Shown: one piece after another, positions 2 to 19,636 of the stretch
Numbering within the stretch: the first letter of the stretch is position 1
How the letters are laid out: each line of letters begins with the position of its first letter
Origin: Armatimonadota bacterium
Lineage (GTDB): Bacteria > Sysuimicrobiota > Sysuimicrobiia > Sysuimicrobiales > Humicultoraceae
DNA length: 44,365 nucleotides
Assembly (NCBI GenBank): GCA_031081715.1
Contig: JAVHMA010000028.1
Span: forward strand, 1-44,365
Direction of reading: 5' to 3'
Translations under genes and position numbers: made by a program
The notes under the pieces: model-generated
Database searches by the model: none
Seen by the model: only the letters and a program-made list of their open reading frames with translations
Told to the model about the DNA's origin: nothing

Positions 2-508
2 CACCGAGACCGCGGCGCGCGGTTCTCGGCCCAGCTCGCCGCGCTGCGCGCGCAGTGGGAGGACGAACGATTCGGTCCGCGGCCTGCCCGGCCCGGGGGC
101 CCGGAGCTACTCGTCGGCGGGCAGAGCGACGATGCCTTCGTGCGGGTGGCACGGTACGCGGACGGCTACGTCCACGGCGGCGGCCCGCCGCGGGCGTTCG
201 CGCGGGCGGCCGACCGGGCCCGCGCGGCCTGGGCGGACGCCGGCCGGCCGGGCGGGCCGCGGCTGTGGGGTCAGGTCTACTTCGCGCTGGGCGACGCGGC
301 GGTCGAGGCCGGCACCCGCTACCTGCTCGACTACTACGCGTTCACGGGGCCGTTCGCGCAGCGCATCGCCGCCGGGCTGCTGGCGACCCCACAGGCGATC
401 GTCCAGACCATTCGCGGCTACGAAGACGCGGGCTGCGAGGACCTGGTGCTCCTGCCCACCGTGGCCGACCCGGAGCAGCTCGATCGCCTGGCGGACGTGG
501 TGGCGTGA
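2..508 (+). CDS. LLM-class flavin-dependent oxidoreductase, C-terminal part (5' end outside window)
   Basis: An open frame enters from the left edge in phase with base 2 and stops at TGA 506-508, giving about 168 residues. The segment with LLVGGQSDDAFVRVARYADG, then GVE-type helices and a final helix ending LDRLADVVA, matches the C-terminal half of the luciferase-like (LLM) TIM-barrel family, where a 'GG...A...ADG' strand-helix lies near the FMN or F420 site. The N-terminal half and start are outside the window. The stop overlaps the GTG of the next gene (GTGA), so it belongs to the anthraniloyl-CoA operon. The substrate cannot be told from sequence. A second LLM enzyme closes the same operon (5506-6519), so the pair may act on related flavin-dependent steps; that is inference. 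Confidence 0.75.
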   Translation, partial: HRDRGARFSAQLAALRAQWEDERFGPRPARPGGPELLVGGQSDDAFVRVARYADGYVHGGGPPRAFARAADRARAAWADAGRPGGPRLWGQVYFALGDAAVEAGTRYLLDYYAFTGPFAQRIAAGLLATPQAIVQTIRGYEDAGCEDLVLLPTVADPEQLDRLADVVA

Positions 509-2715
509 AGGTCCTGATCGTCGGCGGGGGCCCGGCCGGGCTCTACTGCGGCCTGCTGATGAAGAAGGCCGACCCCTCGCGCGAGGTCACGGTCGTGGAG
601 CGTAACCCAGCCGACGCGACCTACGGGTGGGGGGTGGTATTCTCCGAGCGCACGCTGGGCGCCCTCGCGGACGCCGACACGAAGACCGCGCGCGCGATCA
701 CCGAGCGCTTCGTGCAGTGGGACGTCATCGACATCCGCTATCGCGACGCGGCGCTCCGGTGCGGCGGCCAGGTCTTCGCCGGCATCTCGCGCAAGACGCT
801 GCTCGCCATCCTGCAGCGACGCTGCGACGAGCTCGGGGTGCGGCTCCGCTTCCGAACCGAGGTCGCCGACCTGCCGGGGCGCGACGAGGCGGACGTGGTG
901 GTCGCCGCCGACGGCGTCAACAGCGCCATCCGGCAGCGCCTGGCCCGCTGGCTGCGCCCGACGATCCGCGAGGGCCGGTGCCGGTACATCTGGTACGGCA
1001 CCGATCGGTGGCTGGATGCCTTCACCTTCGTCTTCCGCGAGAACGCGGCCGGCCTGTTCCAGGTGCACGCCTACCCGTTCGACGGCACCACCGGCACGTT
1101 CATCGTGGAGTGTGACGAGCCAGTCTGGCGGCGGGCCGGCCTCGACCGCATGGACGAGGCGGAGAGCATCGCCTACTGCCGCGAGCTGTTCGCGCCCGAG
1201 CTGGGCGGCCGGCGGCTGCTGTCCAACCACTCGAGGTGGATCCGCTTCGGCACGCTGGTGACCGCGCGGTGGTGGCACGACCGCGTCGTGCTGCTGGGCG
1301 ACGCCGCGCACACCGCGCACTTCTCCATCGGGTCGGGGACGAAGCTCGCGATGGAAGACGCCATCGCGCTCGCCCGCGCGTTCGAGCACCACCGCGACCT
1401 CGACGCCGCCTTCGCCGACTACGAGATGAGCCGCCGGCCCGTGGTGGAAGCCTTCCAGCAAGCGGCCGGCGAGAGCCAGGCCTACTTCGAGGACCTGCGC
1501 CGCTACCTGCACATGGACCCGCCACAGTTCGCCTTCCACCTGCTCAGTCGCAGCGGACGGATGACCTACGACGCGCTCCAGGTGCGCGACCCACACTTCG
1601 TGGACCGGGTGAACCGGTGGTTCGCCGCGGCCGCGGCGGCCGCGGAGCGGTCCGCGCCCGGCCCCGTGGTCGCGCCGCCGCCGATGCTCGCCCCGCTACG
1701 GCTGCGCGGCCTCGAGCTCGCCAACCGCGTGGTGCTGGCCGCGGGCCCGGGCACGGCCGAGGGCGCTGGTATCCCCGGCCCGGCGTTCCGGCGGCGTGTG
1801 GCCGACCTGGCGATGGTGGGCCCCGGGCTGATCCTGACCGGCCCGGTCGCGGTGGAACCCGACGGCCGCATCACGCCTGCCTCACCGGGCTTCTACAGCG
1901 AAGCGCAGCGGGACGCGTGGGCCGGCGTGGCGGCATCGATCCGTGAGCGCTCGGCCGCGCGGCTCGCGGTCACCCTCAACCATAGCGGTCCCCGGGGCGC
2001 GACGCGCCCGCGCGCGGAGGGCCTGGACCGGCCGCTGCGGGAGGGCGCGTGGCCGCTCGTCGCGGCCTCGACGGTGCCCTACGCGCCGTGGAGCGCGCTC
2101 CCGCGCGCGATGGACCGGGGCGACATGGACCGCGTGCGCGACGCGTTCGCGCGCGCCGCCGGCTTCGCCGCGGCCGCGGGCGTCCACATGCTCGTGCTCC
2201 AGTTCGGTCACGGCTACCTGCTGGCGACCTTTCTCTCACCGCTGACCAACCGGCGCGACGACGCCTGGGGAGGCACCCTGGAGGGTCGCCTGCGCTTCCC
2301 GCTCGAGGTGCTGGACGCGGTACGCGCGGCCTGGCCGGCCGACCGACCGCTGGCCGTGGCGTTCACGGCCGACGACTGCGCGCGGGGCGGTCTGGCGCGC
2401 GAGGACGCGGTGGAAGCCGCGCGCCGGTTCCAGGCGCGCGGCGCCGACCTGCTCATCCCGCTGGCCGGGCAGACCATCCCCGACGCCGGCCCGGCCTATG
2501 GCCGCGGGTTTCTCACCCCGCTCGCCGACCTGGTTCGCAACGAAGCGCGCGTGCCCGTCCTGCTCGCCGGCTACCTGGTTACCACCGACGAGGTCAACAC
2601 CGCGCTCGCGGCCGGGCGGGCAGACCTCTGCCTGGTGGATCCCCCGCACCTGCGCGCCCGGGTCGACCAGGAGTCGCGGACGACGGAGCCAAAGGTAGGC
2701 ACCACGTCCCGATGA
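505..2715 (+). CDS. abmA: 2-aminobenzoyl-CoA (anthraniloyl-CoA) monooxygenase/reductase, two-domain flavoprotein
   Basis: A 736-residue protein with two flavin domains. Residues 1-385 form an FAD aromatic hydroxylase domain: a Rossmann GGGPAG near residue 7 and GDAAHTAHFSIGSGTKLA near 265-283. Residues from about 392 form an Old Yellow Enzyme-like barrel (MLAPLRLRGLELANRVV, HGYLLATFLSPLTNRRDDAW, GQTIPDAGPAYGR). This order is that of the 2-aminobenzoyl-CoA monooxygenase/reductase of aerobic anthranilate degradation, often annotated salicylyl-CoA 5-hydroxylase/oxidoreductase. The family both hydroxylates and reduces the ring of the CoA thioester. The GTG at 505 overlaps the upstream stop and places the GGGPAG at the N-terminus, so this start is preferred to longer ones. 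The stop overlaps the next gene's ATG (ATGA). The second domain is divergent at positions expected to touch FMN and the C-terminus appears short (see findings). Confidence 0.88.
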   Translation: MKVLIVGGGPAGLYCGLLMKKADPSREVTVVERNPADATYGWGVVFSERTLGALADADTKTARAITERFVQWDVIDIRYRDAALRCGGQVFAGISRKTLLAILQRRCDELGVRLRFRTEVADLPGRDEADVVVAADGVNSAIRQRLARWLRPTIREGRCRYIWYGTDRWLDAFTFVFRENAAGLFQVHAYPFDGTTGTFIVECDEPVWRRAGLDRMDEAESIAYCRELFAPELGGRRLLSNHSRWIRFGTLVTARWWHDRVVLLGDAAHTAHFSIGSGTKLAMEDAIALARAFEHHRDLDAAFADYEMSRRPVVEAFQQAAGESQAYFEDLRRYLHMDPPQFAFHLLSRSGRMTYDALQVRDPHFVDRVNRWFAAAAAAAERSAPGPVVAPPPMLAPLRLRGLELANRVVLAAGPGTAEGAGIPGPAFRRRVADLAMVGPGLILTGPVAVEPDGRITPASPGFYSEAQRDAWAGVAASIRERSAARLAVTLNHSGPRGATRPRAEGLDRPLREGAWPLVAASTVPYAPWSALPRAMDRGDMDRVRDAFARAAGFAAAAGVHMLVLQFGHGYLLATFLSPLTNRRDDAWGGTLEGRLRFPLEVLDAVRAAWPADRPLAVAFTADDCARGGLAREDAVEAARRFQARGADLLIPLAGQTIPDAGPAYGRGFLTPLADLVRNEARVPVLLAGYLVTTDEVNTALAAGRADLCLVDPPHLRARVDQESRTTEPKVGTTSR

Positions 2716-3503
2716 GCCACGACCTCCTCTATGAGGTGCACGACGGCGTCGCCACGGTGACGCTCAACCGCCCCGACGTCCTCAACGCGCTCACCTTCGA
2801 GGTCTACGCGCAGCTCCGGGACCTGTTCGACGGGCTGCGCACCGACGACCGGGTGCGGGTCGTGGTGCTCACCGGCGCCGGCCGCGGCTTCTGCTCCGGC
2901 GGCGACGTGCACCAGATCATCGGCGAGCTGCTGCGGCGCGACATGCGCGCGCACCTGGAGTTCACGCGGATGACCGGCGCGGTCGTGCGCAACATGCGCC
3001 TGCTGGAGAAGCCGATCGTCGCGGCGGTCAACGGCATGGCCGCGGGCGCGGGCGCGGTGCTGGCCCTGGCCGCCGACCTCCGTCTGGCCTCCGATCGCGC
3101 GCGCTTCGCCTTCCTGTTCACGCGCGTGGGGCTCGCGGGCGCGGACATGGGCGCGGCGTACCTGCTCCCGCGCGCCGTCGGCATGGGCCGTGCGACGGAG
3201 CTGCTCATGCTGGGCGATACCATCGACGCGGCGACCGCGGAGCGCTACGGTCTGGTGAACCGGGTGGTGCCGCACGATGAGCTCGCCGGCACCGCCGCCG
3301 AGTGGGCGCGCCGGCTCGCCGCGGGGCCCGCGCTCGCGCTCGGGCTCACCAAGCGCATGCTGGTCGCCGAGGAGTCCATGGACCTGGTCACGGCGCTGGA
3401 GGCGGAGGCGCAGGCGCAGGCGCTGCTGCTCATGGGCGAGGACCACCGCCTGTTCTACGAGGCCTTCCGCCGCGAGGCGCAGCCGAAGTTCACGGGGCGG
3501 TGA
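2712..3503 (+). CDS. Enoyl-CoA hydratase/isomerase family protein
   Basis: A 263-residue crotonase-fold protein. The oxyanion-hole strand reads GAGRGFCSGGD near residues 53-63 and the second oxyanion region KPIVAAVNGMAAGAG near 100-114. The usual catalytic-glutamate segment is replaced by GLAGADMGAAYLLPRAVG, a pattern found in crotonases of aromatic acyl-CoA pathways, with Asp where ordinary hydratases have Glu. Sitting between the monooxygenase/reductase and a Rid protein, it probably hydrates, hydrolyses or isomerises a non-aromatic cyclic CoA ester made from anthraniloyl-CoA; the precise step is inference. The ATG overlaps the previous stop. The length is normal for the family. Confidence 0.85.
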   Translation: MSHDLLYEVHDGVATVTLNRPDVLNALTFEVYAQLRDLFDGLRTDDRVRVVVLTGAGRGFCSGGDVHQIIGELLRRDMRAHLEFTRMTGAVVRNMRLLEKPIVAAVNGMAAGAGAVLALAADLRLASDRARFAFLFTRVGLAGADMGAAYLLPRAVGMGRATELLMLGDTIDAATAERYGLVNRVVPHDELAGTAAEWARRLAAGPALALGLTKRMLVAEESMDLVTALEAEAQAQALLLMGEDHRLFYEAFRREAQPKFTGR

Positions 3504-3526
3504 GCGCGGGCGGTGCGCGAGACCCG

Positions 3527-3949
3527 ATGGAACGCCTGATCATCCAACCACCGCAGCTGCCGCCGCCGCGGGGCTTCAGCCACGGCATCCTGGTGCGGGG
3601 CGGGGCGGTGCTCTTCCTGGCCGGCCAGGATGCCAGCGGGCCGGACGGCCGCATCGCCGCACCCGAGGACCTGGTGGCGCAGTTCGAACAGGCGCTGCGC
3701 AACCTCCAGGCGGTCGTGCGCGCGGCGGGCGGGCAGCTCCGCGACGTGGTCAAGTTGACCATCTTCGTGCGCGACCGGCGGCGTTACCTGGCATCGCTTG
3801 GGCCCATCGGCGAGGTCTTCCGCCGGTACTTCGAGGGCCACTACCCCGCGATGGCGCTGTTCGAGGTGAGCGGGTTCTTCCGCGAGGACGCCCTCGTCGA
3901 GGTGGAGGGGATCGCGGTCATCGACGAGCTCGAGGCGCGCGCCGAATGA
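3527..3949 (+). CDS. Rid-family (YjgF/YER057c/UK114) protein 1
   Basis: A 140-residue protein of the trimeric Rid fold, with the typical strand-helix run GAVLFLAGQDASGPDG, then FEQALRNLQAVVRAAGGQLR and VVKLTIFVRD. Rid proteins hydrolyse enamines/imines, and the anthraniloyl-CoA ring-reduction product carries an enamine-like amino group, so a deaminating role in this operon is attractive. However the segment equivalent to the RidA 'PARS..EV' active site reads YPAMALFEVSGF, with Met in place of the catalytic Arg. It is therefore not an archetypal RidA. The ATG at 3527 is chosen; a GTG at 3500 overlapping the hydratase stop (GTGA) would add nine residues and is also possible. Confidence 0.82.
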   Translation: MERLIIQPPQLPPPRGFSHGILVRGGAVLFLAGQDASGPDGRIAAPEDLVAQFEQALRNLQAVVRAAGGQLRDVVKLTIFVRDRRRYLASLGPIGEVFRRYFEGHYPAMALFEVSGFFREDALVEVEGIAVIDELEARAE

Positions 3950-5097
3950 ACTTCGCCCTGACGCCGGCACAGCGGGAGGTCCAGGAGCGGGCGCGGCGGT
4001 TCGCGATCGAGGAGGTCGCGCCGATCGCGCGCGCCATGGACGAACGGGGTGAGTTCCCGCGCCACCTGGTGCCGCGCATGGGCGCGCTCGGCCTGCTCGG
4101 CGGGCCGCTGGCGCCGGAGTACGGTGGCAGCGGGATGGACTACCAGAGCTTCGCGCTCGTCTACGAGGAACTCGGCCGCGTGGATGCCTCGGTGCGCGGC
4201 TTCCTGGCCGTGCACGCCGGGCTCGTGGCGCTGTGCATCCGCGACTGGGGCACCGAGGAGCAGAAGCGCCGCTACCTGCCGCGGCTCGCGCGCGGCGAGT
4301 GGATCGGCTGCTACGCGCTCACCGAGCCCGGCGCCGGCTCGGACGCGGCCAGCCTGGAGACCACGGCGACGCCCGACGGCGACGGCTACGTGCTGCGCGG
4401 GGAGAAGATCTGGATCACCAACGGGGGCGTGGCGGACCTGGCGATCGTCTTCGCCACGCGCGACCCCTCCGCGCGCCACCGCGGCATCTGCGCCTTTCTG
4501 GTGGAAACCCCGACGCCCGGGTTGCGGCGGGAACCGATGCCCGGCCGCGAGCTCGGCCACCGCGCCGCCGACCACGCCCGGCTCGTCTTCGAGGACTGCC
4601 GGGTGCCCGCGGCGGCGATGCTGGGCGCGCCCGGGCAAGGGTTCGCGGTCGCGATGTCGGCGCTCGACCACGGCCGGCTCGGCGTGGCCGCGGGCGCGGT
4701 CGGCGTGGCCGCGGCGTGCCTGGACGCGTGCGTGGCGTTCGCGCGCACGCGCCGCCAGTTCGGCCGGCGCATCGGCGACTTCCAGATGATCCAGGCGCAC
4801 CTGGCCGACATGGCCGCCGACGTGGACGCGGCGCGGCTGCTCGTCTACCGCGCGGCCTGGATGAGAGACCAGGGGATGCCGGCGACCCGCGAGACCTCGA
4901 TCGCCAAGCTCTTCGCGACCGAGGTGGCCGCGCGGGCGGCGGGTGACGCGGTGCTCATCCACGGCGGCCGCGGGTACTCGAACGAGTACCCGGTCGAGCG
5001 GCACTACCGCGACATCAAGGGCCTGCAGATCTACGAGGGCACGAGCCACATCCAGCGGATCATCATCGCCCGCGATCTGGTCGGGCGCGAGGGGTAG
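3946..5097 (+). CDS. Acyl-CoA dehydrogenase
   Basis: A 383-residue FAD-dependent acyl-CoA dehydrogenase of standard length. Diagnostic blocks are CYALTEPGAGSDAASLETTA near residues 122-141, GEKIWITNGG near 150-159, RRQFGRRIGDFQMIQ near 267-281, and IHGGRGYSNEYPVER followed by YEGTSHIQRIIIARDL at the C-terminus. The Glu of YEGTS is at the catalytic-base position of short-chain and glutaryl-type dehydrogenases. It overlaps the upstream Rid gene by ATGA. In this operon it most likely oxidises a saturated or ring-derived acyl-CoA during dearomatised-ring beta-oxidation. The exact substrate cannot be assigned; the absence of a thiolase and 3-hydroxyacyl-CoA dehydrogenase means later steps are encoded elsewhere. 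Confidence 0.9.
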   Translation: MNFALTPAQREVQERARRFAIEEVAPIARAMDERGEFPRHLVPRMGALGLLGGPLAPEYGGSGMDYQSFALVYEELGRVDASVRGFLAVHAGLVALCIRDWGTEEQKRRYLPRLARGEWIGCYALTEPGAGSDAASLETTATPDGDGYVLRGEKIWITNGGVADLAIVFATRDPSARHRGICAFLVETPTPGLRREPMPGRELGHRAADHARLVFEDCRVPAAAMLGAPGQGFAVAMSALDHGRLGVAAGAVGVAAACLDACVAFARTRRQFGRRIGDFQMIQAHLADMAADVDAARLLVYRAAWMRDQGMPATRETSIAKLFATEVAARAAGDAVLIHGGRGYSNEYPVERHYRDIKGLQIYEGTSHIQRIIIARDLVGREG

Positions 5098-5098
5098 G

Positions 5099-5509
5099 GT
5101 GCCGACACCGGGCGCCGCAGACGGCCGGCATCGCGACGGCACCGGCTGGGAAGACGAGGCGGGCTACTCCCGGGCGGCGCGGCGAGGGCGCCGGATCGCG
5201 GTCAGTGGCACCACGGCGAACGGACCGGACGGCACGGTCCTCTTTCCCGGCGACACCTTCGCGCAGGTCCGCGCCGCGCTCCGACGCGCGCTCGACGCGG
5301 TGACCGCACTCGGCGGCACGGCGCGCGACGTGGTGCGCACCCGAGTCTACCTGGCACCCGGCGCGGACTGGCAGGCGGCGGCACGAGCACACCGTGAGGT
5401 GCTGGGTGAGGTCAGTCCAGCCAACACCATGCTCTACGTCGGGGGACTGATCGGCGACGGATTCCTGGCAGAGGTGGAGATCGACGCAGAACTCGGAGAA
5501 GGGTCGTGA
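5099..5509 (+). CDS. Rid-family protein 2
   Basis: A 136-residue Rid-fold protein beginning at GTG one base after the dehydrogenase stop. The core reads GRRIAVSGTTANGPDG, then QVRAALRRALDAVTALGGTARDVVRTRVYL, and SPANTMLYVGGLIGDGFLAEVEIDA. The position of the RidA catalytic Arg is Asn here (PANTML), so this paralogue also lacks the classical deaminase residue. The first roughly 20 residues are polar and not conserved in the family, so a later start is possible although no better start codon is evident. It overlaps the next gene by GTGA. Two different Rid proteins in one operon suggests two enamine or lactam-like intermediates, or a hetero-oligomer; this is inference. Confidence 0.78.
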   Translation: MPTPGAADGRHRDGTGWEDEAGYSRAARRGRRIAVSGTTANGPDGTVLFPGDTFAQVRAALRRALDAVTALGGTARDVVRTRVYLAPGADWQAAARAHREVLGEVSPANTMLYVGGLIGDGFLAEVEIDAELGEGS

Positions 5510-6519
5510 GGACCAGCCTCCGGCTGAACAACGACGTCTCCCCGGAGCTGTTCATCCGTGTGGCGCAGGCCGCCGAAGACGCCGGCTTCGACCAGATCTG
5601 GGTGTCGAACGACCTGTTTCTCAGGGCCGCGCCGGTGCTGTTGGCCGCCGCGGCCAGGCACACCCGCAGAATCGGCCTGGGGACGTGCATCCTCAACCCA
5701 TACTCGATGCACCCCGCCGAGATCGCCATGGCCGCCACCACACTGCAGGAAGTCTCCGGCGGCCGGTTTCGGCTGGGCATCGCCGCCGGTGCGCAGGAGT
5801 TCCTCGGCTGGGCGGGGATCGCGCGTGCCGAGCCCCTGGCCCGGACACGTGAGGCCGTGGTCGCCGTGCGCGCGTTGCTCTCGGGCGGCCGGCCGGCGCG
5901 CGTGCCCGGTGCCGGCGAGCGCTGGCACGACGAGGCGTACCTGCGCGTGCCGCCCGTGCCGGCGCCGATCTACGTCGGTGGCATGAGTCCGAGGATGCTG
6001 GAACTCGCCGGCGAGGTGGCGGACGGCGTGCTACCGTTGCTGTTCCCGCCGGAGCACTTCCCCACCGCGCGTGATCAGGTGGTGCGCGGAGCGCTCCGGG
6101 CCGGCCGCGACCCTTCGACCCTCGACGTCGCCGCGTGCATCTGGTGCTCCGCCGACGAGCGCATGGACCGGGCGCACCGGGCGCTCGCGGAGAAGATCGC
6201 CTACTACGGCCCGTCGTTCGCCCCCTACCTACTGCGGCGCGCCGGCCTCGATCCGTCCGCGTTCGACGACATCCGCGCGGCGATGGCGGCGGGCGACCCC
6301 GACCGCGCGGCAGCCCTGGTCACCCCGCCGATGCTCGCGCTAGGCGTCGCTGGATCACCGGAGGCCATCGTGGCGCGATGCCAGCGCCTGGTAGCGCTCG
6401 GCGCACGGCACCTGTCGTTCGGGCCACCGCTGGGTCCCGACGTGGTACGCGCGGTCGAGCTCCTGGGCGCCCGGGTGCTTCCGGCACTCGGCGGTCGGGC
6501 AGGTAGTGTTCCCTGCTGA
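5506..6519 (+). CDS. LLM-class flavin-dependent oxidoreductase (MER-like)
   Basis: A 337-residue complete TIM-barrel protein of the luciferase/F420-dependent methylene-H4MPT reductase group. Landmarks are AAEDAGFDQIWVSNDLFLRAA (the first helix and following loop), RRIGLGTCILNPYSMHPAEIA, GGRFRLGIAAG and PIYVGGMSPRMLELAGEVADG. The start is a GTG overlapping the upstream stop. It is the last gene of the left catabolic operon: a promoter and signal-peptide gene follow directly. Whether it uses FMN or F420 cannot be read with confidence. It may act on an intermediate of anthranilate ring degradation alongside the first LLM protein, or be a housekeeping paralogue. Confidence 0.82.
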   Translation: MRTSLRLNNDVSPELFIRVAQAAEDAGFDQIWVSNDLFLRAAPVLLAAAARHTRRIGLGTCILNPYSMHPAEIAMAATTLQEVSGGRFRLGIAAGAQEFLGWAGIARAEPLARTREAVVAVRALLSGGRPARVPGAGERWHDEAYLRVPPVPAPIYVGGMSPRMLELAGEVADGVLPLLFPPEHFPTARDQVVRGALRAGRDPSTLDVAACIWCSADERMDRAHRALAEKIAYYGPSFAPYLLRRAGLDPSAFDDIRAAMAAGDPDRAAALVTPPMLALGVAGSPEAIVARCQRLVALGARHLSFGPPLGPDVVRAVELLGARVLPALGGRAGSVPC

Positions 6520-6534
6520 ACTCTCGTGCACCGA

Positions 6535-6564
6535 TTGATCGTCCGCACAGGATGCCGATACAAT
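6535..6564 (+). promoter_or_regulatory. Sigma70-like promoter for the Trp-catabolic/peptide-importer operon
   Basis: TTGATC (6535-6540) and TACAAT (6559-6564) are separated by 18 bases, a good sigma70 match in an otherwise very GC-rich setting. It lies just after the LLM gene stop and 44 bases before the binding-protein ATG. A start of transcription near 6571 would give a short leader holding the strong AGGGGGG ribosome site. Confidence 0.6.
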
Positions 6565-6607
6565 GGCGTATCACCGCACGTGCTGCCATGCACAGGGGGG
6601 TGCACTC

Positions 6608-8266: not shown

Positions 8267-8272
8267 ACGGAC

Positions 8273-8310
8273 GGGAGGGCCCGTCGGCGGGACGCCGCGC
8301 GGGCCTTCCC
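8273..8310 (+). other. Intercistronic hairpin between binding protein and permease
   Basis: GGGAGGGCCCG (8273-8283) pairs with CGGGCCTTCCC (8300-8310), with one G-U pair, and the loop holds a further CGGC/GCCG pairing. There is no T-tract, so it is more likely an mRNA-processing or stability element that keeps the binding protein transcript in excess than a full terminator. The rest of the 95-base gap shows no gene. Confidence 0.5.
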
Positions 8311-8361
8311 CCCACAGGGGCCGCCGGAGCGGAGCCCGTCGGCCACTAGCCTCCTGGCCGC

Positions 8362-9324: not shown

Positions 9325-10276
9325 ACCCGCCGCGGGCCCGGACGCGGAGGCAGCGGCCGTCGTCGCAGCCCCGACAGCCCGCCGGACGTCGCTGTACGGC
9401 GAGGCGTGGCGCCGGCTCCGCGACCACCGCTTGGCGATGGTGGGGCTTGCCTTCCTCGCGCTGTTCGTCCTCGCCGCCGCGCTCGCCCCCTGGCTGGCGC
9501 CGCACGATCCGTTCGAAATCTTCCGGACGCCCGAGGGCCGCATCCGCATCTGGGAGCCACCGTCGCGCGACCACCCGCTGGGCACGGACCGGTTCGGCCG
9601 TGACGTGCTGAGCCGGGTCATCTACGGGAGCCGCATCTCGCTCCTGGTCGGCCTCTCGGTCGCCCTGATCTCCGCTACCATCGGCGCGCTCCTCGGCGCG
9701 CTGGCCGGCTACGCCGGGGGGCACCTGGACAACGTGGTCATGCGGTTCACCGACGCCGTCATGGCGTTCCCGGTCCTGTTTCTCCTGATCACGGTCGCGG
9801 TCGTCGCCGGCCCCTCGGTGGTCAACGTCATCGTGGTGATCGGGCTCGTCTCCTGGCCACGAATCTGCCGCATCGTGCGGGCCGAGTTCCTCAGGCTGCG
9901 CGAGGCAGAGTTCGTGGTCGCGGCCCGATCACTCGGCGCCTCTGATGCGCGCATCACGGTTCTGCACCTCATGCCGAACTCCGTCGCCTCGATCACGGTC
10001 AACGTCACGCTGGACATCGCACGCGCGATTCTCCTGGAAGCCAGTCTCAGCTTCCTGGGCGTCGGGGTCCCCCAACCCACCGCGACGTGGGGGAACATGC
10101 TCCACGAGGCGATGTCCCTGACCGTCGTTCGGGGCATGCCGTGGCTCTGGCTGGCGCCGGGGACGTGTATCTTGCTGACGGTGCTCAGCCTCAACTTCGC
10201 GGGCGACGGCCTGCGCGACGCGCTGGACCCTCGCACGGCGATCGGCCGCGCGGCTCGGGCGGCGGCTGCCGCGTGA
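9317..10276 (+). CDS. ABC transporter permease, DppC/OppC type
   Basis: A 319-residue membrane protein with the N-terminal OppC_N element (WRRLRDHRLAMVGLAFLALFVLAA) and the DppC hallmark HPLGTDRFGRDVLSRVIYGSR. The EAA loop EFVVAARSLGASDARITVLHL lies near residue 195, and the C-terminus reads NFAGDGLRDALDPRTAIGR. It pairs with the preceding permease. The stop overlaps the next gene (GTGA). Neither of the ATPase subunits (DppD/DppF) is present in this operon, so the importer must use ATPases encoded elsewhere; the second importer of the window also lacks them. Confidence 0.92.
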   Translation: MSRPAAGPDAEAAAVVAAPTARRTSLYGEAWRRLRDHRLAMVGLAFLALFVLAAALAPWLAPHDPFEIFRTPEGRIRIWEPPSRDHPLGTDRFGRDVLSRVIYGSRISLLVGLSVALISATIGALLGALAGYAGGHLDNVVMRFTDAVMAFPVLFLLITVAVVAGPSVVNVIVVIGLVSWPRICRIVRAEFLRLREAEFVVAARSLGASDARITVLHLMPNSVASITVNVTLDIARAILLEASLSFLGVGVPQPTATWGNMLHEAMSLTVVRGMPWLWLAPGTCILLTVLSLNFAGDGLRDALDPRTAIGRAARAAAAA

Positions 10277-11073
10277 CGTGCGGCGAGCCCGGGCCGCCGG
10301 GCGCGCTTCCCCCGGACGAGGTCCTGATCGAGCGGATGACCTGGGAACAGGTGCGCGACGCGATCGCCCGCGGGGCGACGCGGGTGCTCCTGGTCGCCGG
10401 CGCAATGGAGCAGCACGGTCCCCACATGGCGATCGCCACGGACACGCTCCTGGGCTACGCGATCGCCACCCGGCTGGCGCGCCGTCTCGGCCGAACACTG
10501 GTCGCCCCCGCGATCACCGTCGGGGTGTCCGCGGGGCAGCTCTCGCACGCGGGCACCCTGAGTCTTTCGCCGGAGACCTTCGGGCGAGTGCTCGTGGACT
10601 ACTGCGAGTCGCTCGCCGTGCACGGGTTCACCGAAATCATGCTGATTGCGAGCCACGGCGGCAACATCCGGCCTATCGGTGAGAACCTGCCTGAGCTACG
10701 GCGGCGGCTGCCCGGCGTTCGCATCCTGGCCTCGGAGACGGACCCGTCAGTGGTCGCCGGGAAACTCGAGCGCGTCTGTCGAAAGCATGGACTCAACCCT
10801 GCGCTGATCGGATTCCACGCCGGACAGGGTGAGACGTCGATGATGCTCGCGACGCACCCCGACCTGGTGGACATGTGTAAGGCCGTCGAGGGCTTCACCG
10901 GCGACGTCTCGATCCGCTGGCGCGCGGCGACCCCGCCGCCGATGAGCACGATGAGCCCCACGGGCATCCTGGGCGACGCGCGCGGGTCCACGGTTGAGAT
11001 CGGCGAGCTCCTGCTAGAGGAGCGCGTCGCGGAACTGGAGGCGCTTGTGCGCGCCGGAACACCAGAAACCTGA
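10273..11073 (+). CDS. Creatininase-family amidohydrolase (candidate N-formylkynurenine formamidase)
   Basis: A 266-residue protein with the creatininase metal-site motifs: VAGAMEQHGPHMAIATDTLL (Glu, His and Asp ligands) near residues 42-61, ASHGGN near 123-128 and HAGQGETSMML near 184-194. The family hydrolyses cyclic or linear amides; besides creatininase it includes the archaeal FAPy deformylase ArfB, which removes formyl from an aromatic amine. The gene is embedded in an operon with tryptophan 2,3-dioxygenase and a kynureninase-like enzyme, where an N-formylkynurenine deformylase is expected but no KynB or alpha/beta-hydrolase formamidase is seen. A formamidase role is therefore proposed, not shown. 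It starts at a GTG overlapping the permease stop. Confidence 0.8.
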   Translation: MTCGEPGPPGALPPDEVLIERMTWEQVRDAIARGATRVLLVAGAMEQHGPHMAIATDTLLGYAIATRLARRLGRTLVAPAITVGVSAGQLSHAGTLSLSPETFGRVLVDYCESLAVHGFTEIMLIASHGGNIRPIGENLPELRRRLPGVRILASETDPSVVAGKLERVCRKHGLNPALIGFHAGQGETSMMLATHPDLVDMCKAVEGFTGDVSIRWRAATPPPMSTMSPTGILGDARGSTVEIGELLLEERVAELEALVRAGTPET

Positions 11074-11107
11074 CCATCGAGGTGGCTTCGTACGCGGGAG
11101 GAGGGAC

Positions 11108-12055
11108 ATGGGGATGTCCGGCAAGACCACAACAGTCCTGACGGCGCGTGGACCGGCGGGGGAGACGATCGAGGTCCCGGTCGGCCGCGTCACCGGTACC
11201 CGCGACGGCCCGACGATGCTGCTTGTGGCGGGCGTGCACGGCTCCGAGTACGTCGGCATCGAGGCGTGCAAGCGGATCTTCCTCTGGGCCAACCCCGACA
11301 GGCTCTCGGGCACGTTGATCACCGTACCGTGCCTGAACGTTCCCGCGTTCTACGGCTTAGCCGCCCACGTCAACCCGATCGACGGCATCAACCCCGGACG
11401 TGTGTTCCCCGGCCGGCCCGACGGCTCGTACACGGAGCGCATGGTCCACCTGGTCTGGGAGCTGGCGCGGCGCGCGGACTACGTGATCGATCTGCACGGC
11501 GGCGACCTCGAGGAGGAGCTCGTGCACTACAGCCAGATCAACCTGACCGGCAACGCTGCCGTGGATGACGCCGCCGAGGGGCTGGCACGAGCGCTCAACA
11601 TGCCATTCTTTGTCCGGCGTCCGGCCCCGGCGGAGCTCCCGATGGCCAACTCCGGGCTGCATCCCATCGCGGCCAGCCATGGCATTCCCGCGGTGCTGGC
11701 CGAAGCGGGGAGCCACGGCGTGCTCGACGAGAACGAGGTGTCGGTGCTGGTCGGCGCGCTGCGCAACGCGCTCCGCCACGTTGGCCTGATTGCAGAGCCC
11801 CTGGATCCGCCTCGAGAGCCGCTCGTCCTGTGCCGGTTCGAAGGCGTCGCGGCGCCGGCGGAGGGCTTCTGGTACCCGACGGTGGGCAAAGGTGAGATCA
11901 TCCGCAGGGGGCAGCGGGTGGGTGAGATGCGGGGGTTCTTCGACGAGCCGCTGGCCACGGTGACCACGGGCGAGGACGCCGCGGTGCTCGGGGTCATCGC
12001 GACCCCGGCGCGGCGCAAGGGCGACCTGCTGCTGGGCCTGGGAACGCTGGACTGA
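11108..12055 (+). CDS. Succinylglutamate desuccinylase/aspartoacylase (M14/AstE-AspA) family hydrolase
   Basis: A 315-residue zinc-dependent hydrolase. Zinc-site motifs are GVHGSEYVGIEA (His and Glu) near residues 40-51 and DLHGG (His) near 132-136; AEAGSHG near 199-205 is at the place of the catalytic Glu. A C-terminal beta-domain (EGFWYPTVGKGEIIRRGQRV) resembles the lipoyl-like barrel of the family. The ATG at 11108 is preceded by a strong GGAGGAGGG site. Relatives remove acyl groups from N-acyl amino acids or act as carboxypeptidases. In this operon it may release an aromatic amino acid from an N-acyl or conjugated form brought in by the importer, or share formyl-removal with the upstream amidohydrolase; both are inference. 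Confidence 0.82.
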   Translation: MGMSGKTTTVLTARGPAGETIEVPVGRVTGTRDGPTMLLVAGVHGSEYVGIEACKRIFLWANPDRLSGTLITVPCLNVPAFYGLAAHVNPIDGINPGRVFPGRPDGSYTERMVHLVWELARRADYVIDLHGGDLEEELVHYSQINLTGNAAVDDAAEGLARALNMPFFVRRPAPAELPMANSGLHPIAASHGIPAVLAEAGSHGVLDENEVSVLVGALRNALRHVGLIAEPLDPPREPLVLCRFEGVAAPAEGFWYPTVGKGEIIRRGQRVGEMRGFFDEPLATVTTGEDAAVLGVIATPARRKGDLLLGLGTLD

Positions 12056-12071
12056 TGATCAAGGAGGCGCG

Positions 12072-12473
12072 ATGACCGAGACGAGAGCGCGGCCGTGGCC
12101 GTGGCGGATGATCGTGCGGGGTGCGTTCCAGGACGGGTGGTCGCTGGCCACACAGGAGGAGAAGAATCGGGCCTTCCAGCACTGGATCGAGGTGCACCGG
12201 CGCTGGCAGGCGATGGGGTGCCGCTTGATCGTGACGGTGGACGATGAGCTCAACATGGTTGGCCAGCCAGGGGCGCGGCTCTGGAACTTCTACAGCATCT
12301 GGGAGATCCCGGGACCGGACATCGTCTACGACCTGCTGAACCTGTTCCGGTCAGAGGAGCCGGGCGAGGTGCGACTTGACCGGTACTTTCGGTTGGAGAC
12401 GGTGGTGGGCAAACCAATCCTGGGCCTGGAACGCGGCCTCGGCGGCCTCCAGCCGCCGACCTTCGTGCCCTGA
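12072..12473 (+). CDS. Small conserved-looking protein of unknown function
   Basis: A 133-residue protein starting at ATG with a textbook AAGGAGG seven bases upstream, only 16 bases after the previous gene. It has no signal peptide or membrane span. The sequence is rich in Trp and aromatic residues in the first two thirds (WPWRMIVRGAF, AFQHWIEVHRRWQAMGCRL, GARLWNFYSIWEIPG), ending with a charged segment and ILGLERGLGG. The predicted alternation of strands and helices is compatible with a small ferredoxin-like or dimeric alpha-beta barrel fold of the darcynin/YciI sort, but I do not recognise it with confidence. Its place between the AstE-like hydrolase and tryptophan 2,3-dioxygenase suggests a supporting role in the kynurenine branch. 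Confidence 0.75.
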   Translation: MTETRARPWPWRMIVRGAFQDGWSLATQEEKNRAFQHWIEVHRRWQAMGCRLIVTVDDELNMVGQPGARLWNFYSIWEIPGPDIVYDLLNLFRSEEPGEVRLDRYFRLETVVGKPILGLERGLGGLQPPTFVP

Positions 12474-12587
12474 GTGCTGGCGATTCTGCAAGGCCCGGGC
12501 AGCTGCACGGAGGAGTCTTCTGTGCGGTCTGCCAATGATAGGCGCAAGGCCCGCGGACAAACCGGTTCGGACTCCCAGGAGGCTCGC

Positions 12588-13406
12588 ATGGCGGACGCGC
12601 CACCGCTCACCTACGGCCGCTACCTCAGGGTGCCCGACCTGCTGCGGTTGCAGCACCGCCTGACCGAGGCTCACGACGAGCTGCAGTTCATCGTCGTCCA
12701 TCAAGTGTTCGAGCTCTGGTTCAAGCTGCTGCTGTTCGAGCTCGAGGCGATTCGCGCCGCCATCTTCGCCGGCGACGTCGGCGGCGCGCTGCATCTCCTG
12801 CGCCGCGCGCACGAGATCGTCAAGGTGCTGACCACCGGATGGCCGGTGATCGAGACGATGCGCCCGGTGGACTTTCTCGAGTTCCGCTCCGAGCTGAAGC
12901 CCGCCAGCGGGTTCCAGAGCGTCCAGTTCCGCGAGATCGAGTACATCTCGAACCTCAAGGACCCCAAGTATCTGGAGGCGTTCCGCGAGGATGCCGAAGG
13001 GGCCCAACGCCTGCGGGCACGGCTGGAGGAGCCCACCCTCTGGGATGCCTTCGTCGCCCTGCTGCGCTCGCGGGGCAAGCCCGCGGGCAGTGATGAGGAG
13101 ATCCTCCAGACCGTGATCCAGCTCCAGCGCCGTACCGAGGACCACGACCTCTACGAGCTGGTCGAGGCGCTCGTGACCTACGACCAGCTCTTCGCCGCCT
13201 GGCGCGCGCGGCACGTCCTGATGACCGAGCGGATGATCGGCGCCCGGCCGGGCACGGGCCAGCTCGCCGTCGCGAAGGTCGTGGGGGAGGAGGCGCCGGC
13301 GCCCGGCGAGATCGAGTACTTCAGCGGGGTACACTACCTGCGCACCACCACCGACAAGCGCTTCTTCCCGCTACTGTGGGAGTCGCGCACCTTCGTGGAG
13401 CGATAG
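12588..13406 (+). CDS. kynA: Tryptophan 2,3-dioxygenase
   Basis: A 272-residue heme dioxygenase that opens the indole ring of tryptophan to N-formylkynurenine. Family-defining segments are all present: FIVVHQVFELWFKLLLFELE (distal-pocket His of the VHQ motif), VDFLEFRSELKPASGFQSVQ (substrate-carboxylate Arg), the Trp-Arg-Ala-Arg-His run WRARHVLMTERMIGARPGTG with the probable proximal heme His, and HYLRTTTDKRFFPLLWE at the end. ATG 12588 is preceded by CCAGGAGG at ideal distance; the 114 bases upstream hold no other gene. It is followed two bases later by the kynureninase-like gene. The length is normal for bacterial homologues. Confidence 0.93.
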   Translation: MADAPPLTYGRYLRVPDLLRLQHRLTEAHDELQFIVVHQVFELWFKLLLFELEAIRAAIFAGDVGGALHLLRRAHEIVKVLTTGWPVIETMRPVDFLEFRSELKPASGFQSVQFREIEYISNLKDPKYLEAFREDAEGAQRLRARLEEPTLWDAFVALLRSRGKPAGSDEEILQTVIQLQRRTEDHDLYELVEALVTYDQLFAAWRARHVLMTERMIGARPGTGQLAVAKVVGEEAPAPGEIEYFSGVHYLRTTTDKRFFPLLWESRTFVER

Positions 13407-13408
13407 CC

Positions 13409-14566
13409 ATGGCCCAGGTCTCCGAGGACCGCCTGCTCGCCTGGCGCGCCGAGTTCCCGATCCTGGCGCGCACAACCTACCTGATCTCGCACTCGATGGG
13501 CGCGATGCCGCGCCGGGCGGCGGCCTGGCTGGCCCGCTACGGCGAGGAGTGGAGCGCGCAGGGAATCACGGCCTGGGATCGATGGGAACCGTACATCCGC
13601 GAGCACGGCGACCGCATCGCCGCGCTGATCGGCGCGGCGCCCGGCACGATCGTCTTCCACCAGAACGTCTCGACCCTGGTCTCGATCGCGCTCTCGGCGC
13701 TCTTCCAGCCTGGCGGCCGGCGCAAGATCGTCACGACCGACCTGAACTTTCCGAGCATCACGTACAACTTCGCGATGCACGCGCGGCTGGGCCTGACAAC
13801 CGAAATGCTGCGCAGCCCCGACGGTGTCACGGTGCCGCTCGAGCAGTGGGAGACCGCGATCGACGACGACACCCTGGCCGTCGTCGTGGACCACGGGATC
13901 TTCCGCTCGGGAGCCCTGCAGGACGCGGCCGCGATCACCGCGCTCGCGCATCGGCGCGGGGCGCGCTGCCTGGTGGACGTCTATCAGACCGCCGGCTGCG
14001 TGCCGGTCGACGTCACCGCGTGGGGGGCCGACGTCGTGGTCGGCGGTTCGCACAAGTGGCTGTGCGGGGGCCCGGGCGCGGCCTGGATGTACGTCCGCCC
14101 GGACCTCATCCCCACGCTGGAGCCGCGTGTCGTGGGCTGGTTCAGCCACGCCCGCCCGTTCGCGTTCGAGCTCGAGATGGACTACTCGCCCACGGTCATG
14201 CGCTTTGCCACCGGTACCCCGAACATCGCGGCCCTCTACGCCGCGCGGGCCGGGCTGGAGATCATCCTGGAGGTGGGGGTGGAGGCGATCCGGCAGCGGT
14301 CGCTGCGGCTCACGCGGCAGCTCGTCGAGCTGGCCGAGGCGCGCGGCCTGCGCGTGAACACGCCGCGGGCGCCCGAGGCGCGCGCGGGCCTGGTGGCCAT
14401 CGACTTCCCCGGCGCGGCCGAGGCTGAGCGCGAGCTGATCCGCCGGGGGGTCATGCTCGACTACCGGCCGCGCTGCGGCCTGCGGCTATCGCCGCACTTC
14501 TACACGACCGAAGACGAGTTGGACCGCGTCTTCACCGAGATCGACGACATCCGCGGCCGGGGGTAG
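13409..14566 (+). CDS. kynU: Kynureninase-like PLP enzyme (aminotransferase class V fold)
   Basis: A 385-residue fold-type I PLP enzyme. The PLP Lys lies in GGSHKWLCGGPGAAWMYV near residues 210-227, matching the kynureninase KYLNGGPG block. DVYQTAGCVPVDVTAWGAD matches the kynureninase DLSHSAGA..DLT.WGVD strand, and WFSHARPFAFE with RFATGTPNIAAL matches its W.GH..PF.F and GTP segments. The reaction would be kynurenine to anthranilate plus alanine. It is somewhat shorter than typical KynU (about 416) and the N-terminal YLISHSMGAMP differs from YLDGNSLG, so specificity is inferred mainly from context directly after tryptophan 2,3-dioxygenase and before the anthranilate-CoA ligase. A related class V enzyme such as a desulfurase is the alternative. 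Confidence 0.8.
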   Translation: MAQVSEDRLLAWRAEFPILARTTYLISHSMGAMPRRAAAWLARYGEEWSAQGITAWDRWEPYIREHGDRIAALIGAAPGTIVFHQNVSTLVSIALSALFQPGGRRKIVTTDLNFPSITYNFAMHARLGLTTEMLRSPDGVTVPLEQWETAIDDDTLAVVVDHGIFRSGALQDAAAITALAHRRGARCLVDVYQTAGCVPVDVTAWGADVVVGGSHKWLCGGPGAAWMYVRPDLIPTLEPRVVGWFSHARPFAFELEMDYSPTVMRFATGTPNIAALYAARAGLEIILEVGVEAIRQRSLRLTRQLVELAEARGLRVNTPRAPEARAGLVAIDFPGAAEAERELIRRGVMLDYRPRCGLRLSPHFYTTEDELDRVFTEIDDIRGRG

Positions 14567-14585
14567 CCCCGGGGGCCGCCGGACC

Positions 14586-16181
14586 GTGCTCACCTACGCC
14601 GACATCCCGCGTCGCTTCAACCTGACCCGCTACTTCCTGGAGCGGAACCTCGAGGAAGGTCGCGGCCAGCGCGTGGCGCTCTACGCTGGCGGGCGCGCGT
14701 ACACGTTCGCGGAGCTGTCAGGCCTCACGAACCGCATTGGCCACGTGCTGCGCGAGTTGGGCGTGGAACATGAAGACCGCGTCCTGCTGGCGCTGGCCGA
14801 CGGGGTGGAGTTCGTCGCCTCGTGGTTTGCGGTGGTCAAGATCGGCGCGGTCTCCGCCGAGGTCTACACTTTCCTCCAGCCCAAGGACTACGCGTACTAC
14901 CTGAACTACACACGCGCGCGCGTCGTCGTGGTGGACGCGACCACGCGCGAGAAGGTCGCGGCCGTGCGCGCCGAGTGCCCGTTCCTCCGGCACGTGCTGG
15001 TCGTCGGGCTCTCCGCGGGCGGTTCGTTGTCCGCGGCTGGGCCGCCGCCCGGGCCCGGCGAGGTGGATTTCGACCGCCTGGTGGCGCAGGCGCCCGAGGC
15101 GCTCGAGGCCGCCGACACCAGCAAGGACGACGTCGCGTTGTGGAAGTTCACCACCGGCAGCACCGGCGCGCCGAAGGCCGCCGTGCACGCCCACCACAAC
15201 CCCCTGATCAACTTCCACGGCTACGGGCTCGGCGTGCTCGGCCTGACGCAGGACGACATCGTGCTTCCGGTCCCCAAGCTCTTCTTCGGCTACGCCCGCG
15301 ACCTGACCGCGCTCTACAACCTGGGCGTCGGCGGCGCCGGCGTGGTCTTCCCCGAGCGCTCGACGCCCGAGCGCCTGTTCGAGCTCATCGCGCGGCACCG
15401 GCCGACGATTCTGGTGCAGGTGCCGACCATGCTCAACGCCATGGCCGACCACCCCGACGCCGACCGCCATGACCTGCGCTGCCTGCGGCTGTGCACCTCG
15501 GCCGGCGAGGCGCTGCCCGCGGAGATCTACCACAAGTGGAGGCGGCGGTTCGGCGGGGAGGTGCTCGACGGCATCGGGTCGAGCGAGGTCTACCACATCT
15601 ACATCTCGAACCGGCCCGGCCGCGTGCGGCCCGGGAGCGTCGGCGAGCTCGTCCCCGGCTACCAGGCGAAGGTCTGCGACCCCGACGGGCGGCCGCTGCC
15701 CACGGGCGAGGTGGGCGAGCTCTGGGCCGGCGGGGAGAGCACCGCGCTGCTCTACTGGGACGACCACGAGAAGACCAAGCACACCTTCCACGGCGACTGG
15801 GTGCGCACCGGCGACCTGTTCCGCCAGGACGCCGACGGCTTCTTCTGGTACCAGGGCCGTGCCGATGACCTGCTCAAGGTGGGCGGCATCTGGGTCGCGC
15901 CGCTGGAGATCGAGGGCTGCCTGGTCGAGCACGAGGCCGTGGCCGAGTGCGCGGTGGTGGGCTACGAGGAGGCAGGGCTGGTCTTGCCGCGCGCCTACGT
16001 GGTGCTGCGGGCGGGCCGGGCCGGCGGGCCGGAGCTCGCAAAGGCGCTGCAGGAGTTCGTGCGCGCGCGGCTCTCGCCCCACAAGTACCCGCGGGACGTG
16101 CGGTTCATCGAGAGCATGCCTCGTACGCCGTCGGGAAAGGTGGACCGGAAGGCGCTGCGGGCGCCGGACAAGAGGGGCTGA
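14586..16181 (+). CDS. Anthranilate/benzoate-CoA ligase (AMP-forming)
   Basis: A 531-residue ANL-superfamily ligase of the benzoate-CoA ligase group. The P-loop-like motif is KFTTGSTGAPKAAVHAHHN near residues 187-205. YHIYISN and the GYQAKVCDPDG strand surround the acyl pocket; RTGDLFRQDADGFFWYQGR is the adenylate-binding Asp region, KVGGIWVAPLEIE the hinge, and PRTPSGKVDRKALR carries the catalytic Lys near the C-terminus. The aerobic anthranilate pathway starts by activating anthranilate to 2-aminobenzoyl-CoA, the substrate of the monooxygenase/reductase at 505-2715. The start is a GTG 20 bases after the kynureninase-like gene. Benzoate or another aryl acid remains possible as substrate; AbmG of Azoarcus evansii is the functional analogue. 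Confidence 0.87.
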   Translation: MLTYADIPRRFNLTRYFLERNLEEGRGQRVALYAGGRAYTFAELSGLTNRIGHVLRELGVEHEDRVLLALADGVEFVASWFAVVKIGAVSAEVYTFLQPKDYAYYLNYTRARVVVVDATTREKVAAVRAECPFLRHVLVVGLSAGGSLSAAGPPPGPGEVDFDRLVAQAPEALEAADTSKDDVALWKFTTGSTGAPKAAVHAHHNPLINFHGYGLGVLGLTQDDIVLPVPKLFFGYARDLTALYNLGVGGAGVVFPERSTPERLFELIARHRPTILVQVPTMLNAMADHPDADRHDLRCLRLCTSAGEALPAEIYHKWRRRFGGEVLDGIGSSEVYHIYISNRPGRVRPGSVGELVPGYQAKVCDPDGRPLPTGEVGELWAGGESTALLYWDDHEKTKHTFHGDWVRTGDLFRQDADGFFWYQGRADDLLKVGGIWVAPLEIEGCLVEHEAVAECAVVGYEEAGLVLPRAYVVLRAGRAGGPELAKALQEFVRARLSPHKYPRDVRFIESMPRTPSGKVDRKALRAPDKRG

Positions 16182-16182
16182 C

Positions 16183-17214
16183 GTGGAGCTGGCTGACCTC
16201 GTCGCAGAGCTGACCGATCTGTTCGGCCCGAGCGGCGCCGAGGCGCCGGTTCAGGATCGCGTCGAGCAGCTCTGGGCGGACCTCGGTCTGCACCCGCGCC
16301 GCACGCCGACCGGCAACGTGATCGCTGAGACCGGTGACGGCGGCGAGCGGCTGCTCGTCGCGGCCCACGCGGACGAGATCAGCTTCCGCGTGCGCAGCGT
16401 CACGCCAGGCGGGTTCCTCTGGCTGACCGCCGGCCGCGCCATGGGCGAGTCCGTGCCGCCGCAGCCTGTGCCGCTCGGCCACCCGGCTGCGGTGGTGACC
16501 CGAACGGCGGTGCTGCCGGGCACGTTCGTCACGCCGACGGGCCACGTCCTCAGCCGCCCGGGCACCGAGGGCCGTGGCCAGAACTGGGGCGAGTTCCTCG
16601 TGGACATCGGCGTGCGTAGCGCCGGGGAGGCTGCGGCGGCCGGCGTCCATGCGGGCTGTCCGGTCGTACCCGCGGTGCGCACCCGCCGGGTTGGTCCGCT
16701 GCTCGTTGGCAAGGCGATGGACGACCGCGCCGGCCTGGCGGTCATCACGTGGATGCTTCGCCTTCTACGCGGTCAGACGCTACGTGTCCGCGTCCGGGTG
16801 GCCTCGACCGTCCTCGAGGAGGTCGCGCTCGGCGGCGCCCGCGAGGTGGCCGAGGGTTGCGATCGGGCCATCGCCGTCGAGGTCGGCCTGGCTGGCGACG
16901 TGCCGATGGTCGGGCTGGACCAGATGCCCGTACGCCTGGGCGCCGGCCCGGCGCTGCTCCACGCCGACGCGTTGATGCACTATGACCGCGCGCTGACCTA
17001 CTCGCTGGCGGACGCCGCGCAACGCGCCGGGCTGCCGGTGCAGCACGCCGCCTATCCCACGTTTGCGACCGACGGCGCGGAGTGGGTGAAGGAGCGCGTG
17101 CCGACGGCGGTGGTGACGTTCCCGACCCGCTACACGCACAGTGTCTTCGAGACGGTGGACGTAGACGACCTGACGCGCACGGCGGAGCTGCTGGCGGCGT
17201 TCGTGCGGGGCTGA
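16183..17214 (+). CDS. M42-family metallopeptidase (glutamyl aminopeptidase-like)
   Basis: A 343-residue di-metal aminopeptidase of the M42 family. Metal and catalytic motifs are AAHADEISFRV near residues 62-72, AMDDRAGLAV near 177-186, STVLEEVALGGAR near 207-219, and YTHSVFETVD near the C-terminus. The usual Asp at the fourth ligand position appears as Glu (IAVEVGLAGD), a tolerated change in the family. It starts at GTG two bases after the ligase stop and ends the catabolic operon. M42 peptidases form dodecameric tetrahedra that trim short peptides. With the peptide-type importer at the head of the operon, it could release tryptophan from imported peptides; that link is inference. Confidence 0.87.
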   Translation: MELADLVAELTDLFGPSGAEAPVQDRVEQLWADLGLHPRRTPTGNVIAETGDGGERLLVAAHADEISFRVRSVTPGGFLWLTAGRAMGESVPPQPVPLGHPAAVVTRTAVLPGTFVTPTGHVLSRPGTEGRGQNWGEFLVDIGVRSAGEAAAAGVHAGCPVVPAVRTRRVGPLLVGKAMDDRAGLAVITWMLRLLRGQTLRVRVRVASTVLEEVALGGAREVAEGCDRAIAVEVGLAGDVPMVGLDQMPVRLGAGPALLHADALMHYDRALTYSLADAAQRAGLPVQHAAYPTFATDGAEWVKERVPTAVVTFPTRYTHSVFETVDVDDLTRTAELLAAFVRG

Positions 17215-19590: not shown

Positions 19591-19636
19591 GAGCGGCCGT
19601 GTGCTCCTCGCGCGGCGCTACGTGCCCCGCGCCGCG

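Follow-up and report, generated by a model that had tools for sequence, protein, structure and literature searches.

How might an aerobic anthraniloyl-CoA pathway reduce the aromatic ring when the reductase half of its central enzyme has lost its active-site residues? The question is raised by the window, the complete 44-kb contig JAVHMA010000028.1 (44,365 nucleotides) of a 2.98 Mb, 97% complete Armatimonadota genome, in which a gene for a protein resembling 2-aminobenzoyl-CoA monooxygenase/reductase (ACMR) directly follows a gene for a luciferase-like (LLM) oxidoreductase, LLMa. In the known pathway, described for Azoarcus evansii (Schuhle et al. 2001, as far as PMC4539516 recounts it) and for plasmid pAL1 of Arthrobacter sp. 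Rue61a (PMC3534580), ACMR is one flavoenzyme that converts anthraniloyl-CoA to 2-amino-5-oxocyclohex-1-ene-carbonyl-CoA, and yields 5-hydroxyanthraniloyl-CoA when NADH is short (PMC4539516, PMC3534580). This enzyme hydroxylates at its FAD site and presumably reduces the ring at its old-yellow-enzyme (OYE) site. We consider it likely, judging from sequence, that the window encodes a split version of the enzyme, with an intact FAD half, a dead OYE half and a separate LLM reductase, most likely F420H2-dependent.

The OYE half and the upstream LLM gene

The FAD half of the ACMR-like protein is a class A FAD monooxygenase with conserved FAD motifs, and its control residues remained conserved (22/22). 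The protein scored 885 bits against PRK08255, below the cut-off of 1078. In the other half, we scored eight canonical OYE positions, which we take from general knowledge of OYE structures to be flavin and substrate contacts. The window protein kept one and had lost seven: the SPMxxYS loop, the FMN-contacting Gln and Arg, the first His of HxxHGYLL and the Arg of xxARPH were all replaced, and the phosphate-site Arg of the GRAD motif was retained. Structure prediction still returned an OYE fold (TM-score ~0.8 to XenA/YqjM), suggesting that this half survives as a fold without its active-site residues. A first-pass annotation of the locus, made by a model from the sequence, had called the protein a two-domain monooxygenase/reductase; the monooxygenase half bears this out, the reductase half does not. 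Both luciferase-like genes of the block and the loss of OYE residues were absent from that annotation.

We then compared OYE residues with gene neighborhood and observed that 91 ACMRs fell into two groups without overlap. Those immediately preceded by an LLM gene (LLM-coupled; 22 proteins) kept one to four of the eight residues, and the 69 others kept seven or eight. One uncoupled locus, L124, comes from the genome that is also G030, which lowers the independent uncoupled count by one. For 66 of the 69 uncoupled ACMRs, 1 kb or more of upstream sequence was available, and no LLM gene was found in the available flanks. The split was not built into the sampling, since the 80 named loci were retrieved through their ACMR using motifs in the FAD half. 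Seven haloarchaeal plasmid loci, found later, had an LLM gene upstream and kept one to three residues; four actinobacterial plasmid ACMRs without LLM kept seven or eight, among them that of pAL1, whose anthraniloyl-CoA route is backed experimentally (PMC3534580). Overall, coupling to degeneration was complete: 29 LLM-coupled proteins (22 bacterial, 7 haloarchaeal) kept 1–4 of 8 residues, and 73 uncoupled proteins kept 7–8.

The same pairing was seen genome-wide, as LLM orthologs of at least 67% identity occurred, among 61 genomes from the order and beyond, in exactly the six with a degenerate ACMR. LLMa is 74% identical to the complete LLM encoded upstream of the ACMR in the relative G005, and the subfamily is conserved. 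In the window, LLMa overlaps the ACMR gene by 4 bp (GTGA, 505-508) and the ACMR gene overlaps the hydratase gene by 4 bp (ATGA, 2712-2715), suggesting translational coupling. G005 also encodes an ACMR paralogue (L016:3637-7308), ~9 kb from its LLM-coupled ACMR, with none of the eight OYE residues and no HGYLL motif.

Constraint on the two halves differed between the groups. Mean identity among uncoupled proteins was 63.9% in the OYE half versus 57.4% in the FAD half, and the order was reversed among LLM-coupled proteins (51.4% versus 61.1%). Among pairs matched at 60–65% identity in the FAD half, LLM-coupled proteins were 51.5% identical in the OYE half and uncoupled ones 66.9%. The degenerate OYE half thus evolves faster, under relaxed constraint. 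Together with the gap-free separation (≤4 versus ≥7 of 8 residues), this led us to reject chance loss. It also bears on whether the OYE half is divergent yet still binds FMN and works, with the LLM protein in an unrelated or auxiliary role such as flavin supply. The predicted fold, the invariant GRAD Arg and the retention of the Gln, the Arg or both His in some members speak for a working OYE half; however, several members lack the flavin loop altogether and the lost residues are swapped for many different ones, and we regard this explanation as quite improbable.

In a tree of the FAD half, LLM-coupled and uncoupled proteins lay on opposite sides of one strongly supported branch, with the G005 paralogue (L016_3637) on the LLM-coupled side. 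The 29 counts are therefore not independent, which also limits any P value for the association; several independent OYE losses were rejected because the trees give one split only. We interpret the association as one split followed by faithful co-inheritance rather than 29 separate events. In a single-family quick tree, the haloarchaeal ACMRs nested beside a Chloroflexota member, so LLM and ACMR genes seem to have crossed between domains together.

F420 and the proposed division of labor

The LLM protein has the Bac_luciferase fold: it matches PF00296, and the model of an ortholog (pLDDT 91) gave LLM-fold structural matches. We searched for F420 ligase, the only F420 biosynthesis gene searched, and found it in the window's own genome (247 bits), in 21 of 22 LLM-coupled bacterial genomes (one of the 21 by a contig-end fragment only) and in 13 of 38 uncoupled ones. 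In Natronosalvus halobius, cofH and npdG occur at the flanks of the LLM-ACMR pair; no relatives of these two genes were found near the bacterial LLM-ACMR loci. From this context, the LLM protein upstream of ACMR is probably F420H2-dependent. For a second luciferase-like protein of the block, LLMb, the nearest profiles are F420 Mer models, scored below cut-off.

On this basis we propose the following route, for which we infer the substrate as well as the reaction and cofactor of the LLM protein. TDO (tryptophan 2,3-dioxygenase), a deformylase and the kynureninase-like enzyme would convert tryptophan to anthranilate, which the aryl-CoA ligase would activate to anthraniloyl-CoA. The FAD half of the ACMR-like protein would hydroxylate this thioester, and the LLM protein encoded upstream would take over ring reduction, most likely using F420H2. 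RidA, the hydratase and the dehydrogenase would then process 2-amino-5-oxocyclohexene-carbonyl-CoA as in the known pathway. The chemistry fits, in that 5-hydroxyanthraniloyl-CoA, formed by NADH-short ACMR (PMC3534580), is the product expected without a working reductase half. Moreover, three genomes of family f4 carry the LLM-coupled type and four the canonical type, next to TDO-kynureninase modules that resemble one another; this speaks for functional interchangeability of the two types. In both, members of the same hydratase and dehydrogenase families are encoded downstream; given the similar upper modules, both types should yield the same product.

Alternatively, the LLM protein might be an FMNH2-dependent monooxygenase (Baeyer-Villiger or ring-cleaving) for a new later step, the OYE half having decayed once reduction was unneeded. 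Type II Baeyer-Villiger enzymes belong to the LLM family, and FMN-dependent monooxygenases were the top structural matches of the LLM protein. We think this unlikely, since the canonical hydratase and dehydrogenase genes are retained in LLM-coupled loci and since F420 genes accompany the pair, with cofH and npdG at its flanks in N. halobius.

Several observations nevertheless weigh against an F420H2-dependent split enzyme. The 5' part of LLMa is lost beyond the contig start (position 1), and the complete G005 ortholog scored 147.7 bits against TIGR03619, the F420 model that it matched best, below the cut-off of 166.9. In the structure search, the LLM fold matched both F420 enzymes and FMN-dependent monooxygenases. 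Part of the OYE site is kept in some LLM-coupled members, and one event, then passed on by descent and transfer, may underlie all 29 LLM-coupled cases; the F420 genes likewise cluster by phylogeny. Of two metagenome-assembled genomes whose LLM-coupled ACMRs are among the least degenerate, one (L049, Acidobacteria) had no F420 ligase match and the other (L047) only a contig-end fragment.

The window type shares with the A. evansii and Rue61a pathway the FAD half, the two-domain layout and the aryl-CoA ligase, as well as the hydratase, acyl-CoA dehydrogenase and RidA neighbors in many relatives. Unlike the known ACMR, it has lost the OYE active-site residues, has an LLM gene directly upstream and occurs with F420 genes in nearly all such genomes. 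It shares the PF00296 fold and family and an F420-biosynthesis context with the F420-dependent luciferase-like hydride transferases, the review of which (PMC8498797) does not mention anthranil-, aminobenzo- or benzoyl-CoA; we found no aryl-CoA dearomatization role there. The literature searched, with most subscription papers outside its reach, held no description of a split ACMR/LLM variant and nothing relevant on aminobenzoyl-CoA with F420 or LLM, or on formylkynurenine with creatininase.

The evidence leaves us evenly divided on a broader claim, namely that this would be a second, F420H2-dependent aerobic aryl-CoA dearomatization in Bacteria and Archaea, in which the LLM protein, a hydride transferase acting in trans, takes up the monooxygenase product, the reductase domain is left as a pseudoenzyme scaffold, and the intermediate may be channeled from one protein to the other. 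If so, a fused bifunctional enzyme would have been un-fused in function, one half becoming a pseudoenzyme while another cofactor system takes its reaction, and the pair would then have spread between bacterial phyla and into haloarchaea. To our knowledge, this would be the first role of F420 in the catabolism of aromatic rings as CoA thioesters, a catabolic function added to those known. It would also correct the automatic annotation "salicylyl-CoA 5-hydroxylase/oxidoreductase" for the whole clade. Because the two half-reactions would lie on two genes, the reductive step in the aerobic breakdown of anthranilate could be tested alone; cultivated carriers of the pair are Labedaea rhizosphaerae DSM 45361 and Haladaptatus salinisoli PSR8. 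Close to the LLM-ACMR cluster on three haloarchaeal plasmids (L130, L131 and L135) lies a gene annotated trpB.

The proposed route from tryptophan to anthraniloyl-CoA

We next consider the enzymes that would supply the substrate. In an alignment with solved TDOs, the distal His, the carboxylate Arg, the proximal His and the GTG loop were all conserved in the window TDO; we assign these residues heme and substrate roles in line with what is generally known of TDO structures. The protein scored 204.9 bits against TIGR03036, below the cut-off of 390.7, and passed the Pfam cut-off. The kynureninase-like enzyme aligned from end to end with the kynureninase of Pseudomonas (PDB 1qz9; E 8e-50), scored 137 bits against TIGR01814, under the cut-off of 246, and retains the pyridoxal-phosphate (PLP) Lys, the conserved Trp and the carboxylate-binding Arg. 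In this enzyme and its whole lineage, SHKWLC replaces the classical YKYLN (Tyr-Lys-Tyr-Leu-Asn), placing a His before the PLP Lys. Three kynureninase-like lineages adjoin TDO in different phyla: the SHKWLC type in the window and family f4, the YKYLN type in Pseudomonadota, and a type with GHSHQAWP...GGGYKYLQ in Actinomycetota, of which the Gemmatimonadota proteins are a close variant. Gene context, with the SHKWLC lineage regularly encoded beside TDO, rather than residues supports a kynureninase function for the SHKWLC enzyme. The ligase scored 494 bits against TIGR02262, above the cut-off of 375, and its best PDB match, 4wv3, is an anthranilate-CoA ligase, which it probably is as well.

The window thus shares TDO catalytic residues and a kynureninase-type PLP fold with the aerobic bacterial kynurenine pathway (TDO, KynB, kynureninase), and differs from it in the SHKWLC subtype and in having no KynB gene within the block; elsewhere, its own genome has six genes of the cyclase family. 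Creatininase and KynB genes were mutually exclusive among TDO loci. The creatininase-family protein of the block was considered as N-formylkynurenine formamidase, but it is no ortholog of the ACMR-linked creatininase-like proteins, a separate subfamily to which it is 25–29% identical. The members of that subfamily, mostly 46–84% identical, track genomes with ACMR, TDO and kynureninase: the gene lies downstream of ACMR in L060, L062, L063 and L067, occurs in L015 and L017-L020, and in the window's own genome adjoins a RidA gene on contig 45 (G000; L141:8415-9341). No KynB motif was found in the TDO clusters of genomes with the conserved protein, which weakly matches the IolN model. It is a candidate for the N-formylkynurenine formamidase or for a ring-opening hydrolase, and the two roles are indistinguishable because the gene tracks ACMR as well as TDO.

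The linkage itself is real and recurrent. TDO, kynureninase and ACMR genes are adjacent in five relatives (G013, G024, G027, G030 and G033) and are found clustered both elsewhere in the order and, among others, in Actinomycetota, Gemmatimonadota and Pseudomonadota. Among the 80 named loci, TDO lay near ACMR in Labedaea, Actinophytocola, a Melainabacteria record, Gemmatimonadota, Roseateles, Rhizobacter, Niveispirillum and others. The first-pass annotation had considered this linkage unusual, which its recurrence across several phyla contradicts. Its reading of the block as tryptophan to kynurenine to anthranilate to anthraniloyl-CoA is the natural one and is supported by co-conservation, with the reservation that the kynureninase-like enzyme scores below its family cut-off. 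One genome (G004, L022) carries two adjacent TDO homologues that each share ~53% identity with the TDO of the window; no relative of ACMR or kynureninase was found within the 20 kb examined.

These results also bear on the possibility that the fused protein uses another aryl-CoA, such as salicylyl-CoA, and that TDO and kynureninase are near it incidentally. The NCBIfam family is named salicylyl-CoA 5-hydroxylase, and several LLM-coupled loci have no TDO within their flanks; however, TDO and kynureninase lie near ACMR at many loci from several phyla, including the LLM-coupled L015, L060, L062, L063, L067 and L072, and the ligase best matches an anthranilate-CoA ligase in structure. We judge another substrate rather unlikely.

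Importer genes and layout of the block

The first-pass annotation had also given the block its own peptide importer. A Dpp/Opp importer set comprises a solute-binding protein (SBP), two permeases and two ATPases, and no ATPase gene was found in the block; the closest to the SBP-DppB-DppC trio lie at 41.9-43.1 kb, one of them of LIV type. Such a trio was near ACMR in only one (L078) of the 80 other named loci, so that when gene order was compared with related genomes, TDO, kynureninase and ACMR were co-conserved and the importer was not. A contiguous island that combines the canonical two-domain enzyme with an importer of its own is hence highly improbable, even though the gene families are mostly as first described. 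A further SBP_5/DppB/DppC trio, likewise without ATPase genes, lies at 30008-34129.

Profile searches (Pfam, NCBIfam) placed the genes of 505-17214 on the plus strand throughout, with 4-bp overlaps between several neighbors, and confirmed the TDO, kynureninase-like, ligase, ACMR-like, hydratase, dehydrogenase and M42 families first assigned to this same-strand block. Two Rid proteins had been proposed; only one is RidA, and the second was rejected, as it matched no Pfam or NCBIfam family and no PDB entry.

Table 1. Features of the catabolic block in the window
Feature	Position	Strand	Basis
LLMa, luciferase-like (LLM, F420/FMN type) oxidoreductase, C-terminal 168 aa	2..508	+	PF00296
ACMR-like protein: VioD-like FAD monooxygenase half (~aa 1-365) fused to degenerate OYE half (~aa 391-712)	505..2715	+	PF01494 (FAD_binding_3) + PF00724 (Oxidored_FMN)
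Degenerate OYE half of ACMR-like protein	1675..2640	+	residue comparison
Enoyl-CoA hydratase family (PRK08258)	2712..3503	+	383 bits vs cut-off 330
Acyl-CoA dehydrogenase	3946..5097	+	PF00441/02770/02771; G005 counterpart 77% identical
RidA-family enamine/imine deaminase	5099..5509	+	PF01042
LLMb, second luciferase-like oxidoreductase, methylene-tetrahydromethanopterin-reductase-like	5506..6519	+	PF00296, 208 bits
Solute-binding protein family 5 (Dpp/Opp type; SBP_bac_5)	6563..8266 (alternative start 6608)	+	PF00496
DppB-type permease	8362..9324	+	PF00528
DppC-type permease	9317..10276	+	PF00528/PF12911
Creatininase-family amidohydrolase, HGGN subtype	10273..11073	+	PF02633
AstE/AspA-family deacylase, DoeB-like but below cut-off	11108..12055	+	PF24827
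133-aa protein without recognizable family	12072..12473	+	no match in Pfam, NCBIfam, PDB
TDO, conserved core from ~aa 39, start codon uncertain	12474..13406	+	PF03301, 158 bits; PDB 2nox/2nw7
Kynureninase-like PLP enzyme (aminotransferase V), SHKWLC subtype	13409..14566	+	PF00266 + KYNU_C; PDB 1qz9
Aryl-CoA ligase (benzoate-CoA-ligase family), probably anthranilate-CoA ligase	14586..16181	+	TIGR02262; PDB 4wv3
M42 aminopeptidase	16183..17214	+	PF05343

Convergent to the catabolic block, a tryptophan/aromatic biosynthesis operon on the minus strand (18997-30458) encodes DAHP synthase, prephenate dehydrogenase, TrpE, TrpD, TrpC, TrpF, a TrpB-like protein and two NUDIX proteins. Further downstream, M81 and M24 peptidase genes lie beside or opposite a branched-chain-amino-acid-type importer (34622-39381 on the minus strand and 37444-43485 on the plus strand).

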